Below the pieces are notes generated by a model, which ran no database searches, was not told where the DNA came from, and worked only from the letters and a program-made list of their open reading frames with translations. Of a stretch of DNA of 64,000 nt, positions 2,547-6,898 are shown in pieces. The DNA is from Fictibacillus sp. FJAT-27399 (lineage in GTDB: Bacteria > Bacillota > Bacilli > Bacillales > Fictibacillaceae): NCBI RefSeq assembly GCF_001510655.1, contig NZ_LMVC01000002.1:269700-333699 (forward strand), written 5' to 3'. How positions within the stretch are numbered: position 1 is the stretch's first letter; each line of letters starts with the position of its first letter. The translations under genes and the position numbers were made by a program.

Positions 2547-3005
2547 TTAGTGGCAGGAACTTGAACGTTTCTTTTTTTTCTTCACTTTTTTGCAATCTAA
2601 AACGTAAGAAGACGAGCTTTGTTTGCAGGTCTTCTTATGAGAAGAACGCTTTTTGGAAGAGCTGCGCTTGCAACAGTGTTTGGAAGAAGATGAACTTCTT
2701 TTCTTTGATCTCTTGTGTGATCTCTTGTGTGATCTCTTGTGTGATCTCTTGCTTGATCTCTTGCTTGATCTCTTGCTGGATCTCTTGCTGGATCTCCTGC
2801 TTGATCTTTTGCTTGATCTTTTGCTTGATCTTTTGCTTGATTTCTTGCTGGATCTCTTGCTTGATCTTTTCCCAGAACGTTTCCCAGAACGCTTCCCGGG
2901 ACGCTTTCCGGAACGTTTTCCAGACCTTTTGCTGGATTTTTTTCCAGAACGCTTACTGCTTCTTCCACTTGAACTTTCAGACGGATCATTACGCCATACG
3001 CTCAT
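2547..3005 (-). CDS. cotG: CotG-like Ser/Lys/Arg-repeat spore coat protein
   Basis: A 152-residue extremely basic protein. Residues about 15-105 are tandem SSKR/SGKR/SHKR units encoded by 12-base DNA repeats; the C-terminal third is rich in Cys (HCC, TC, DC, SC-H) and ends in a lysine run. It begins at ATG behind GGAGG. This repeat style and its place between cotB and divergent cotH identify it as CotG, a structural coat protein and CotH kinase substrate in B. subtilis. Because the repeats have a 3-base-multiple period, the other frames are open too and should be ignored. Repeat number may differ between strains. Confidence 0.88.
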   Translation of the reverse strand: MSVWRNDPSESSSGRSSKRSGKKSSKRSGKRSGKRPGKRSGKRSGKRSSKRSSKKSSKRSSKRSSKRSSRRSSKRSSKRSSKRSSKRSHKRSHKRSHKRSKKRSSSSSKHCCKRSSSKKRSSHKKTCKQSSSSYVLDCKKVKKKKKRSSSCH

Positions 3006-3198
3006 GCTTGAACCTCCTATACCTTTGGTAGGCGAAAAGAAGATAACTTAGCAATCTCTTTTCAAACATAGTGTACGTTGATTTTTTATTAGTGCTTGGG
3101 CGTTAGTACAATTCACCAGCCCCATTTTCACCTTGGAATGTAGCGCATGCATTCTCTTCATCATAGAGATAAGTATCAACGATAGGGAGAATGAAGAA

Positions 3199-4287
3199 AT
3201 GCATAATAACGCTATACCGGAGTACAACATTTCTGTTCCCTTTAAGGGAGTAAAATGGATTCAGAAAGGAAAATGGGCAAACGAGGCTGTTGCTGGTGTC
3301 ATTAAAGCAGGGGATAAACCATATGAAATGCTGATTAAGTACAGAGGTGCCCATATTCGCTCATTTCCAAAAAAATCCTATGATCTTTTGTTTATGAAAT
3401 CTCAATCCTTTTTTGGGGCAAGAAGGATTCATTTGAATGCAGAATACAATGACCCGTCTCTCATAAGAAATAAGCTTTCTTTGGATTTTTTTCGTGATAT
3501 CGGGGTCCTGTCACCTGAAGCACAGCACGTTACATTGTATATTAATGGGCTTTATCAAGGAGTTTATCTTCAGCTTGAGTCAGTTGATCAGAAATTCTTA
3601 AAGAAACGGGGATTGCCGGCAGGAAGTATTTATTATGCGATCTCTGAAAACGCAAACTTTTCGAAGTATAATCCGACGACTGGAAAAGAAAAGAGATCAG
3701 TAACAGCAGGTTATGAGATAAAATTTGATCCGAACAAATCGTTCAACAGCCTCCGTGAACTTATGCATTGTATTCTAAATTCATCTGAAAAGGAGTTTCC
3801 TTCGCGAATTGAACCCCTCCTGGATATCGATCAATATTTCAGGTGGCTTGCAGGTGCGGTCTGTACACAAAATTTTGACGGCTTTATCCATAATTACGCG
3901 TTATATAAAAATGGAGAGAGCAAACGCTTTGAAATCCTGCCTTGGGATTATGATGCAACGTGGGGAAGAGACATCCACGGTGATGTCATGGGAAATAAAT
4001 ATGTACCGATTGAAGGCTATAACACACTGACAGCACGGCTCTTGCTTCATAAGCCTTATAAACGCCAGTATAAAAGGATCATGGAAGAGGTACTCGACGA
4101 TGCCTTTACTTGCAGGGCTTTGGAACAAAAAATCCTTGCTTTACACCAGTCTTTGCGTCCGCATCTCGTGAAAGACCCATATAAACACCGGTCTTTGTCC
4201 ATTTTTGATGAAGAGCCGGAATTTATTCTAGCCTTTATCAAAAACAGAAATAAATATTTAAAGAAACGGCTTACGCGTCTGCAATAA
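3199..4287 (+). CDS. cotH: spore coat protein kinase CotH
   Basis: About 362 residues from the ATG at 3199, chosen because GGGAG lies just upstream; the frame is open from 3133. The family's active-site signature is clear at LPWDYDATWG near residue 255-265, with an upstream KKSYDLLF lysine region (FPKKSYDL) typical of the CotH kinase fold. CotH is an atypical protein kinase that phosphorylates CotB and CotG and controls assembly of the outer coat. It is divergent from cotG, as in B. subtilis, where cotH is read from a distant promoter across the cotG region. No break is seen. Confidence 0.93.
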   Translation: MHNNAIPEYNISVPFKGVKWIQKGKWANEAVAGVIKAGDKPYEMLIKYRGAHIRSFPKKSYDLLFMKSQSFFGARRIHLNAEYNDPSLIRNKLSLDFFRDIGVLSPEAQHVTLYINGLYQGVYLQLESVDQKFLKKRGLPAGSIYYAISENANFSKYNPTTGKEKRSVTAGYEIKFDPNKSFNSLRELMHCILNSSEKEFPSRIEPLLDIDQYFRWLAGAVCTQNFDGFIHNYALYKNGESKRFEILPWDYDATWGRDIHGDVMGNKYVPIEGYNTLTARLLLHKPYKRQYKRIMEEVLDDAFTCRALEQKILALHQSLRPHLVKDPYKHRSLSIFDEEPEFILAFIKNRNKYLKKRLTRLQ

Positions 4288-4328
4288 AAAAATCCTGCTG
4301 AACAATAATGTTCAGACAGGATTTTTTT
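4286..4328. terminator. terminator between cotH and rsgI
   Basis: AATCCTG plus CTGAACA pairs with TGTTCAG plus CAGGATT, flanked by A and T runs, so it can stop both converging genes. Confidence 0.8.
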
Positions 4329-6150
4329 AAGCAGCAGCCTCAGTTACGAGAGGGGCTGCAGTTTCAGCTGATTCTTGATTTAGAGTTTCATCGCTATGCT
4401 CTGAAGTTTCAGCATCTGCAGACGGTTCTTCTTGAACGGCTGGTGGATTAGCTGGAGCTAAGCTGTTATCTTGTTCCGCAGCTGGTGTTTCCGTTGCTGC
4501 AGGCGGTTCTTTTTGAACAGCGGTATCTGTATCCTTTATTGCAGGTGCTGTTTCATGAGAATCGGCCTCTGGTGAAGAAGTTACTTCCTCAGCTGAAGAA
4601 GATGGCTCATTTTGATTGTCTTTTTGCTCTGCTTCTTGGGCTGACGCTCTGTAAGCGGATAAGCCTGATGCTGCATAAGTCTGGACAGCGTTTGCAGGTT
4701 CTGCGGCAGGTTCAGAATCATGATTCTGGTGCGCTGACTCTTGATGGTCATTGTCTGAGTCAGTACCCCTGTTTTCGCCTTTATCACATTGAACTTCCGG
4801 TTTAGGTTCTTCTTTAGGAAGACCGGCAGCTGGAGGAAACTCAGCTTTTGTCTCTTTAGGTACCGCTGGTAAAGAAGAATCATTTTTTCTCACCTTTGGT
4901 ACGTCCGCTGGAGGTGTTGTGTTTTTGGTTCCCTCTTTTTCCCTCGCCGGGACTGTAACAGGGGAAGGATCTTTATCTTCGGTGACCGACTTGCTGTTCT
5001 CTTTTTCAGGTGCTGCAGGAATAACATACGGCTTAGAGTTTGCAGCAGGCACTGGAACAGTAAGTTTGGAAGATTCTACGGCAGGTGCAAATGGTTTGGC
5101 AGGCTCAGGTGCTGCCGGTGCCTTTCCTTGCTGCTCAGCTGGTGCAGGAACACTTCCTGCAGAAGGATCTGGCGTGATGATTGCTGCTGGTGTCTGATTT
5201 TGATCTGAACTTCCACCAGATGCAGCAGCTGGAAGGCTTTCAGCCGTTGCTGGTACTGGAACTTTTACTATGTTTGGAACAGCTGCAATGGTAATGGAAT
5301 TCGCATAGACAGTCTCAGCATTCTCTTTCGCTTGTCCCTCAATCGTTTCAATATGAACAAAAACTGCAACATGGGGATACTCACGAGATTGTGCTGTAGA
5401 AAGAAGATCACTGATCGGGCCTACCGCTTCTGACAGTTCCTGAATGCTTTTTTGCTTGATATCCGCTTTTGTAATCTCGATTCCTGCTTCTTTTGCAGCG
5501 ATGAAGATCGCATATTTCCCTGGTGAAACACCAATTTTCTGAGCGCGTTTCCGTTCTTGGTTTGACATGATTAATGAAGTCATGTCAATTTTATTTTCCT
5601 GCGCTTTTTTTTCCATCAAAGAATTGATTTTTTGTTCGATCTTTCGCTGTGTTTCTTTTGAAACATCTTTATTGATCGTGGTCGTGACGATTACTTCCTG
5701 ATTTGGTTTAATAAAGCCTTTTGCTCTGCAGATCTCGAATATTTTTTCGGTAACCTCTTCTATCGGCTGGTTCTGCCAATCTTCAAGAATAGCAAGAAGC
5801 TTTCTCCCGTCCGAATTATAAGCAGTGATATTTTGAACGAGCATGTCACCATCAATTTCAAGCTCGATGCTCGGATTCATTTCAATTCCTACATACGCGT
5901 AAACCCCTTGTCCTGTATAAGGAAAAAATTGTAAAAATAACAAGACGAAGGTCATCATAAACACTGTCGTTGTTTTCCAGCTAATTGTGGGAAGCCGGAA
6001 CGTCCGTTGTTTTTCCAGTTCGTTTGGTAAGTAAATATCACTGCCTACTGAATATTGCCTATTTGAAATTTTAACTTTACGAAATACTCCGCCCTCTGAC
6101 AGAACGATCAAATGGCGACGTTTTACTTCTACCACAATTCCCTTAGTCAT
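4327..6150 (-). CDS. rsgI: anti-sigma-I factor RsgI with long Pro/Ala-rich tail
   Basis: About 607 residues from ATG at 6150, set by AGGAGG overlapping the sigI stop. Residues 1-50 form the cytoplasmic RsgI N-terminal domain (MTKGIVVEV...), one membrane helix follows near 58-78, then an extracellular domain with MNPSIELEID, the Asn-Pro motif at which RsgI proteins are cleaved. From about residue 290 to the end it is a disordered region rich in Pro, Ala, Glu and Ser, unusually long. RsgI holds SigI inactive and releases it after envelope stress. The partner gene upstream here lacks the N-terminal half of SigI, so the circuit may be altered. Confidence 0.88.
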   Translation of the reverse strand: MTKGIVVEVKRRHLIVLSEGGVFRKVKISNRQYSVGSDIYLPNELEKQRTFRLPTISWKTTTVFMMTFVLLFLQFFPYTGQGVYAYVGIEMNPSIELEIDGDMLVQNITAYNSDGRKLLAILEDWQNQPIEEVTEKIFEICRAKGFIKPNQEVIVTTTINKDVSKETQRKIEQKINSLMEKKAQENKIDMTSLIMSNQERKRAQKIGVSPGKYAIFIAAKEAGIEITKADIKQKSIQELSEAVGPISDLLSTAQSREYPHVAVFVHIETIEGQAKENAETVYANSITIAAVPNIVKVPVPATAESLPAAASGGSSDQNQTPAAIITPDPSAGSVPAPAEQQGKAPAAPEPAKPFAPAVESSKLTVPVPAANSKPYVIPAAPEKENSKSVTEDKDPSPVTVPAREKEGTKNTTPPADVPKVRKNDSSLPAVPKETKAEFPPAAGLPKEEPKPEVQCDKGENRGTDSDNDHQESAHQNHDSEPAAEPANAVQTYAASGLSAYRASAQEAEQKDNQNEPSSSAEEVTSSPEADSHETAPAIKDTDTAVQKEPPAATETPAAEQDNSLAPANPPAVQEEPSADAETSEHSDETLNQESAETAAPLVTEAAA

Positions 6151-6163
6151 CGAAAGGGGCCTC

Positions 6164-6586
6164 CTATTCTGGCAAATAGCCTTTAAGATAATGATAGTCT
6201 TCAATCACAATAAGAGCCGTAGCGATAATATAGGGGGCATATCGAGTGATGCTCTTCTTTTGAAAATTTTTTAAAAGCTGGGAGGTTGGCAGACTTTTTT
6301 TATTAAGAAAAAATGATCGCAGTTCGATGTCGTTAGCTATATATGAGGCGATGATGAAGGCTTCTTTTCTTCTATTCTTGGTTTGGGGTGTCCATTTCGG
6401 CATCTGGCATATATCAATCCCAAATTGCAAAAGCCTGCTTTTATAGTGTTCAACTTCTTTGTCAGGTGAAATGGTTTTGGGCTCAAGACAAGCTGCCGCT
6501 GAAGATCTGGTAGCTATGGGATTGGCATTATCCGGCAATGTGTATGTATTTGAAATGAATATCCTTCTTTTAAGCCAGCTGATCAT
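6164..6586 (-). CDS. sigI: SigI-like protein lacking sigma region 2 (C-terminal half only)
   Basis: 140 residues. The C-terminal 95 residues match the SigI C-terminal domain: a spacer helix region, then KKSLPTSQLL and a YIIATALIVIEDYHYLKGYL-like ending that is the family hallmark. The usual protein is about 240-250 residues; here the polymerase-binding and -10-binding sigma-2 region is missing. The ATG at 6584-6586 follows GGAGG at 7-base spacing, with an in-frame stop just upstream, so this short form looks translated as it stands. It lies 13 bp before rsgI. It may be a remnant, or a regulator that binds RsgI without acting as a sigma factor (inference). Confidence 0.75.
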   Translation of the reverse strand: MISWLKRRIFISNTYTLPDNANPIATRSSAAACLEPKTISPDKEVEHYKSRLLQFGIDICQMPKWTPQTKNRRKEAFIIASYIANDIELRSFFLNKKSLPTSQLLKNFQKKSITRYAPYIIATALIVIEDYHYLKGYLPE

Positions 6587-6898
6587 AAACCACCCTCCAT
6601 TTCTCCATTCTTAACATTTGTTGTTCTTGTCTATAAACATATATTTAGAAAATATTAACTATCAGATTATAGTATGGAAACCATGAAAATAACAGGTACA
6701 ATAGTCATGCTTTGTTGATTTGTGAGGGGGAATAAAGTCTAATGTTATTAGTAGATTAAAAGGCTATTAAACAAGAAAGTTATGGGAAAATAGGAAATGG
6801 AAAAATATAGATCAGGACCTTCGCGGTATGGCTTTTTTAGTATAACGTTGCTACCCTTTATTTAAAGAAGTGAATATTCTGAAAATGGAGGATTTACA
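6587..6898. other. 312-bp intergenic region between divergent genes
   Basis: A/T-rich DNA between sigI (minus) and the serine hydrolase (plus). It should hold both promoters. I see no coding potential and no sigma-region-2 coding remnant in any frame. Confidence 0.5.

Follow-up and report, generated by a model that had tools for sequence, protein, structure and literature searches.

The closest described systems to the locus analysed here are the SigI-RsgI operons of Bacillus subtilis and Clostridium thermocellum. Sigma factors are expected to work or be lost, and other arrangements in which part of a sigma factor, or the surface that it contacts, is handled by a separate protein include SigO-RsoA of B. 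subtilis, a two-subunit sigma factor, and phage T4 AsiA, a flap-binding anti-sigma or appropriator protein that occupies the flap tip of RNA polymerase. To our knowledge AsiA is unrelated to the C-terminal domain of SigI (SigI-C). According to extracts of PMC10575876, SigI-C reads the -35 element in sigma-I open complexes, its helix-turn-helix lying in the major groove and His171 in the minor groove. SigI6 lost all activity with five of the substitutions made at His171 and kept a little with Lys or Arg, and in C. thermocellum RsgI binds the same SigI-C face as the RNA polymerase flap tip, this competition being the inhibition (extracts of PMC10575876). Autocleavage is given as the first release step in PMC12203970. 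A search of the open-access literature that included two sigma-I papers returned no description of a standalone SigI-C, which is weak evidence as it covers open access only.

The 64,000-nucleotide stretch of Fictibacillus DNA analysed here (the window) carries a gene, sigIC2 (6164..6586, minus strand), for a standalone SigI C-terminal domain protein of 140 amino acids, a designation based on NCBIfam matches and on conservation in 25/25 genomes of two GTDB genera. A sequence-only reading of the window had described, without giving a strand, an uninterrupted frame with GGAGG seven bases before the ATG and a stop just upstream, and all of this was seen: GGAGG ends seven bases 5' of the ATG start, the stop codon is TAG, and the open frame of 148 codons reaches an in-frame stop approximately eight codons 5' of the ATG. 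Its statement that only the SigI C-terminal domain is retained was also borne out. The NCBIfam SigI models match over their last ~100 positions only (e.g., TIGR02895, positions 122-219 of 219, E 3.5e-18), and a Pfam search of the product gave no match, sigma-70 region 2 being absent. The N-terminal part of full-length SigI, compared by tblastn with the upstream DNA of the window, of four other short-gene loci and of locus L109 (see below), gave chance-level matches only (E >= 0.3 in the window and the four other short-gene loci). The protein begins with MISWLKRR (6563..6586, minus strand), and an alignment of 24 short SigI-C rows gives the motif M-I-[S/R]-(R)-W-[L/F]-x-[R/K]-[R/K] with M1, I2 and W4 invariant; the 25th row, L110, starts MTWLKR. 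A variable linker follows the motif and is predicted to be disordered (AF2 pLDDT <50 for residues 1-35).

The rsgI2 gene (4327..6150, minus strand) starts 13 bases past the sigIC2 stop, in agreement with the earlier claim of coupling to a full rsgI, and encodes a second RsgI-type membrane protein of 607 amino acids (RsgI_N E 7.4e-10, RsgI_M E 1.3e-31). The sigIC2-rsgI2 pair has in common with the described SigI-RsgI operons their order and coupling, the SigI-C fold (6ivu, 8i23, 8i24) and the RsgI_N and RsgI_M/SEAL domains, but it differs from them in the missing region 2, in the loss of promoter-reading residues and in an RsgI dipeptide that is altered in 19/25 orthologues.

To place the gene among its relatives we used a profile search of 299 genomes, in which at least 221 had a match among the matches listed, down to about E 3e-22, and an all-match re-search of 79 genomes (G007 and 78 of the 221, hand-picked for weaker or second matches). 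The short gene, without internal stop, is present in 25 of the 34 genomes of the GTDB family, and these belong to two genera (g1, seven genomes including that of the window, and g2, 18 genomes). The other nine, from two further genera, have full-length sigI only and the short gene is absent from all nine. All 16 named short-gene loci from the profile search are from Fictibacillus. Because relatives at 31-98% identity share frame, start position and rsgI coupling in 24 aligned loci (window included; the 25th locus is L110), sigIC2 is more than a chance open frame. Between the short-gene stop and the start of rsgI the offset is -4 to +13 bases in 24/24 loci, and in L110 the two genes overlap by four bases. 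A full-length sigI frame of at least 250 codons was found in 33 of the 34 family genomes; in the exception, G015, which is one of the 25, a complete sigI is split by an assembly frameshift (L127:1116-1891) and the short gene is open. The sequence-only reading had proposed a search for a second sigI, and the window's genome does contain an intact sigI-rsgI pair elsewhere: a complete 248-amino-acid SigI with its own RsgI, ~90 kb from sigIC2. The C-terminal part of this SigI is only ~34% identical to SigIC2.

A decaying remnant, a deletion specific to this strain or an assembly error would account for the absence of region 2 from sigIC2, and frameshifted sigI genes do occur in single genomes elsewhere (L016, L122, L126, L127). 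The sequence-only reading had raised all three possibilities, but the comparison with relatives leaves this explanation hardly credible. In 25/25 genomes the short gene has an open frame and is coupled to rsgI, and its start position and a strong ribosome-binding site are shared. Its place is conserved across the 16 named loci, and in none of the 24 other Fictibacillus-type genomes is it replaced by a full-length frame. Pairwise dN/dS (NG86) is well below 1, at ~0.07-0.31 apart from one near-identical pair. The seven short genes of g1 form 21 pairs, of which 3 were saturated and 18 gave a value: 0.40 for the near-identical pair L001/L004 and 0.18-0.31 for the other 17. Among the short genes of g2 it was 0.07-0.18 in 36 pairs (9 of 17 fetched genes). 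The C-terminal part of full-length sigI from six g1 genomes gave 0-0.05 in 14 of 15 pairs with a value. The short gene is under purifying selection, which is looser than that on the C-terminal part of full-length SigI.

Other short SigI frames in the dataset were rejected as examples of the same gene. Those in G330 and G207 are frameshifted full-length genes, that in G367 runs into a contig end, that in G136 is broken, and L016, the third match in G006, is a copy with a frameshift. A mobile origin was also rejected; there was no phage match, and the two plasmid matches were both annotated sigI.

Residues 36-140 of SigIC2 (6167..6481, minus strand) are predicted to adopt the SigI-C fold, with the core kept and the DNA-contact positions substituted. 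AF2 pLDDT exceeds 90 over most of this region, and VIA-align superposed the model on 6ivu_B with Z 15.3 and an rmsd of 2.6 over 105 aligned residues. The model also matched 8i23_F (Z 13.4) and 8i24_F (Z 10.2), the next chain scoring 3.9. Over sets of 999 and 65 chains only SigI chains reached Z >= 5, a result that does not by itself exclude other relationships. An HMM match of SigIC2 to 6ivu_B had an E of 2.3e-17.

We aligned the 25 short rows with 52 full-length SigI rows, an alignment of the kind that the sequence-only reading had suggested. The full-length rows were selected from the fetched loci by locus number, leaving out L111 as well as L092, which duplicates L002. The short rows retain the SigI-C core, including Pro169, Ala178, Ala182, Tyr223, Ile224, Ala226, Ile230, Leu238 and Tyr241 in 25/25 rows, and have lost DNA-contact residues. 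His171 (SigI6 numbering) is present in 51/52 full-length rows (49 distinct) and in 0/25 short rows, two of which, L009 and L110, have Arg at this position. Ser213, Glu218 and Lys222 are each present in 52/52 full-length and 0/25 short rows, and there are gaps in the helix-turn-helix region of the short rows. Arg or Lys occupies position 215 in 8/25 short rows, and other DNA contacts are partly kept (Lys170 13/25, Arg219 17/25, Arg221 17/25). Full-length SigI is conserved to 90% or more at 34 positions; the short rows retain on average 0.22 at the 10 of these that contact DNA and 0.70 at the 24 others (Mann-Whitney p 0.0012, with related rows treated as independent). There is no clean split between contact and non-contact positions, because Arg219, Arg221 and Lys170 are often kept and some non-contact positions are lost (Asp173, Val210, Asn220 and Lys222, all near the DNA). 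On these alignments the conservation difference marks the DNA-facing region and not single residues alone. The sequence-only reading had argued from the missing polymerase-binding part that the protein cannot be a normal sigma factor, and this conclusion now has a second basis, as the DNA-reading residues of the domain that remains are lost as well.

These losses bear on the idea that SigIC2 is one half of a two-subunit sigma factor, reading the -35 element while region 2 comes from another protein. Sigma factors split in this way are known, and there are 22 region-2 matches in the window's genome (21 above the Pfam cut-off). However, the -35 contacts are lost in SigIC2, and among the 22 matches SigI-type region 2 was recognised only in the full-length gene. 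The three shortest region-2 frames (104, 146 and 124 codons), the only ones of the 22 that were read, are two with the same sigma-K-like N-terminal half and a third that looks broken; an unrelated region 2 could still serve. SigIC2 resembles SigO-RsoA in that the C-terminal part of a sigma factor is a protein of its own, but it differs in having no recognised region-2 partner, in its lost DNA contacts and in being paired with a membrane anti-sigma factor. We consider a two-subunit sigma factor very improbable here. The two similar region-2 frames (L088 and L089; G000:C6:756218-756502 and 878848-879264), which lie ~120 kb apart, share a long identical stretch.

In RsgI2, the cytoplasmic RsgI_N domain corresponds to residues 1-41 (6028..6150, minus strand; domain match and AF2) and the extracytoplasmic RsgI_M/SEAL domain to residues 84-215 (5506..5901, minus strand; domain match and solved RsgI chains). 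A long variable tail precedes the RsgI2 C-terminus, which is -AAA in the window (4327-4400), -AS or -AA in 15/16 named loci and TTR in L040. In L041-L043, rsgI continues in frame past the short-gene stop. We modelled the L042 read-through chain, with TAG read as glycine and thus SigI-C and RsgI_N in one chain, using AF2 with 24 rows. The pTM was 0.74 and 154/189 residues had pLDDT >= 50, with a short natural linker that forces the two domains close together; in ten-residue blocks, pLDDT was 90-98 over residues 41-130 (SigI-C) and 84-93 over residues 141-180 (RsgI_N) of the chain. A pTM of 0.74, set against the ~0.55 that we roughly estimate for SigI-C (~100 residues) placed alone, points to a defined two-domain arrangement, and SigI-C is predicted to dock on RsgI_N.

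The sequence-only reading had suggested that the short protein could titrate RsgI. As an anti-anti-sigma factor, SigIC2 would compete with complete SigI for RsgI, RsgI1 included, and so set SigI activity. This fits with the inhibition of sigma-I by RsgI through this same domain, in competition with the flap tip (extracts of PMC10575876), and with the presence of a complete sigI-rsgI pair in the same genome. On the other hand, the same extracts state that RsgI binds its cognate SigI specifically (PMC10575876), and SigIC2, only about one-third identical to the C-terminal part of complete SigI, has an RsgI2 of its own to which it is coupled. The 25 Fictibacillus partners group as a single clade (support 100/99) in a tree of 63 RsgI rows, apart from the family's canonical RsgI; some rows of the tree carry approximately ten in-frame letters 5' of the true start, and a long-branch warning applies to the tree, L109 included. 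The AlphaFold placement of the domain against its own RsgI_N fits a protein that holds its own partner, and titration appears unlikely to us.

Five solved RsgI chains start at the residue equivalent to Pro93 of RsgI2, and because they begin there we take this position as the cleavage point, which makes Asn92-Pro93 (5872..5877, minus strand) the presumed self-cleavage dipeptide of the SEAL domain. The equivalent dipeptide in the 25 RsgI2 orthologues is NP in 6, DP in 17, EP in 1 and DA in 1, so it is altered in 19/25. The NP holders are the g1 genomes without F. macauensis, and they include the window's and another genome of its species; DA is found in F. macauensis (L009) and EP in G007 (L110), the latter read by eye outside the SEAL pattern. 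RsgI linked to full-length SigI has NP in 35/37, the exceptions being L072 (NW) and L083 (KA); these 37 are the sequences caught by the SEAL pattern, which misses other flanking letters, and several full-length loci gave no row. Regulated release may survive in the six Asn-Pro genomes, and Asp-Pro might still cleave.

A further possibility is that free SigIC2 modulates RNA polymerase, sitting, with no region 2 of its own, on the beta flap tip and so lowering or redirecting the activity of other sigma factors. One SigI-C face binds both the flap tip and RsgI (extracts of PMC10575876), the fold is kept, and an Asn-Pro release site is present in six genomes. SigI-C would in this respect resemble AsiA, in that it has a flap-tip/RsgI-binding face in C. 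thermocellum (extracts of PMC10575876). The alteration of the release site in most orthologues stands against this, and we consider it somewhat less probable than titration.

The reading that we favour, with a probability of roughly 0.5, is that sigIC2-rsgI2 is a retired sigma/anti-sigma pair, in which SigI-C caps the cytoplasmic domain of RsgI and cannot direct transcription. Its observed basis is the absence of region 2, the kept fold, the loss of most DNA contacts, the coupling, the selection on the short gene, the dipeptide change in 19 of the 25 orthologues and the separate sigI; Asn-Pro in six genomes, Arg171 in two short rows and selection looser than that on full-length SigI speak against it. 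An ancestral extra sigI-rsgI operon would have lost sigma region 2, after which the SigI-C domain would have lost its promoter contacts and kept its fold. SigIC2, made in coupling with RsgI2, would then stay bound to the cytoplasmic N-terminal domain of RsgI2 at the membrane, where the docking is predicted by the model and its permanence is our extrapolation. Its role would thus be that of a permanent cap and stabilising subunit, in place of a transcription factor that can be released. The probable advantage would be that the N-terminal domain of RsgI2 neither captures housekeeping SigI nor stays unfolded, and RsgI2 itself may have a role in the envelope through its extracytoplasmic SEAL domain and long tail. 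Pseudoenzymes such as pseudokinases offer an analogy, as a fold kept for binding after the original activity is lost, but the activity lost by SigIC2 is promoter recognition and not catalysis. The persistence of the short gene next to its membrane-bound partner suggests that, in the Fictibacillus genomes examined, a gene switch has turned into something else and has not simply decayed. If true, this would show how a membrane protein complex can arise from a gene switch. There is also a warning for annotation, which on the basis of similarity can give such proteins the name 'RNA polymerase sigma factor SigI', and the Asn-Pro, Asp-Pro, Glu-Pro and Asp-Ala variants are a natural set for probing what SEAL self-cleavage needs.

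SigI-C genes without region 2 were also found outside these two genera. A second standalone SigI-C/rsgI pair is present in G105 (L109:739-3031), in one of the three genomes of its family. The L109 RsgI falls outside the Fictibacillus clade, and the tree needs two changes (with the long-branch warning in force). The L109 SigI-C retains His171, and its N-terminal part is similar to the last portion of region 2 (the NCBIfam match starts at model position 97); this SigI-C may therefore represent an earlier stage, or else a remnant. The cleavage site of its RsgI is NF. Lone SigI-C genes of 111-116 codons occur in four of the 15 genomes of family f21 (L106, L107, L124 and L125, from G129, G183, G322 and G323). 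Each is arranged tail to tail with its neighbour, a gene that is similar in all four, and there is no rsgI in the fetched stretch. The neighbour in L124, the one case tested, has a STAS domain and a weak RsbRD_N match below the cut-off. Two further lone genes come from a single genus of family f2 (L105:1443-1805, 120 codons, G173; L108:1539-1913, 124 codons, G269), likewise with no rsgI in the fetched stretch around them. We tentatively propose, as a possibility that we hold less firmly than the retired pair itself, that SigIC2 is a pseudo-sigma factor without promoter recognition, retained in some two dozen species as the cytoplasmic subunit that a membrane RsgI holds permanently, release of that RsgI by self-cleavage being disabled in most of them, and that SigI-C has met the same fate more than once in Bacillales, both with RsgI (in Fictibacillus and one other genome) and without it (as lone genes, one kind of which lies beside an RsbR-like stress protein).

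Upstream of sigIC2, alignment of 25 upstream regions revealed a conserved block (6640..6706, minus strand), recognisable across all of them and less so in L110, that is a putative promoter and leader. It consists of a GACT box (6703-6706), TATAAT (6666-6671) and a GTTA.TATT.TCT block (6640-6665). Inspection by eye shows no good -35 match at the normal distance from TATAAT, and control by an activator or by other means is therefore possible. The sigma-I promoter consensus for Bacillales, given as ACCCCC--AA-N15-CGAA in extracts of PMC4711584, has no exact match in the whole of the window's genome, and none upstream of the sigIC2-rsgI2 operon. The best matches have 3-5 mismatches in the 25 short-gene upstream regions and likewise 3-5 for nine complete sigI genes; the absence of the consensus says little, because these nine lack it too.

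Gene order is conserved around the pair, with the short gene, rsgI2 and then a relative of a potassium-channel-like gene in 16/16 named loci. In the window this gene (599-1438, Ion_trans_2 and TrkA_N) lies downstream of rsgI2. Relatives of the next genes, which we presume to be pgi and bdh, were found in 12 of the 16, and in the other four the channel-like gene is near the end of the fetched stretch. A link to sporulation through cotH and CotG-like neighbours was rejected, as cotH was seen only in L040-L043 of the 16 named loci (g1 without F. macauensis). In the window these neighbours together occupy positions 2547-4287 and consist of a minus-strand gene for a protein of Ser-Lys-Arg repeats that looks CotG-like by eye and an adjoining CotH kinase gene (PF08757, plus strand).
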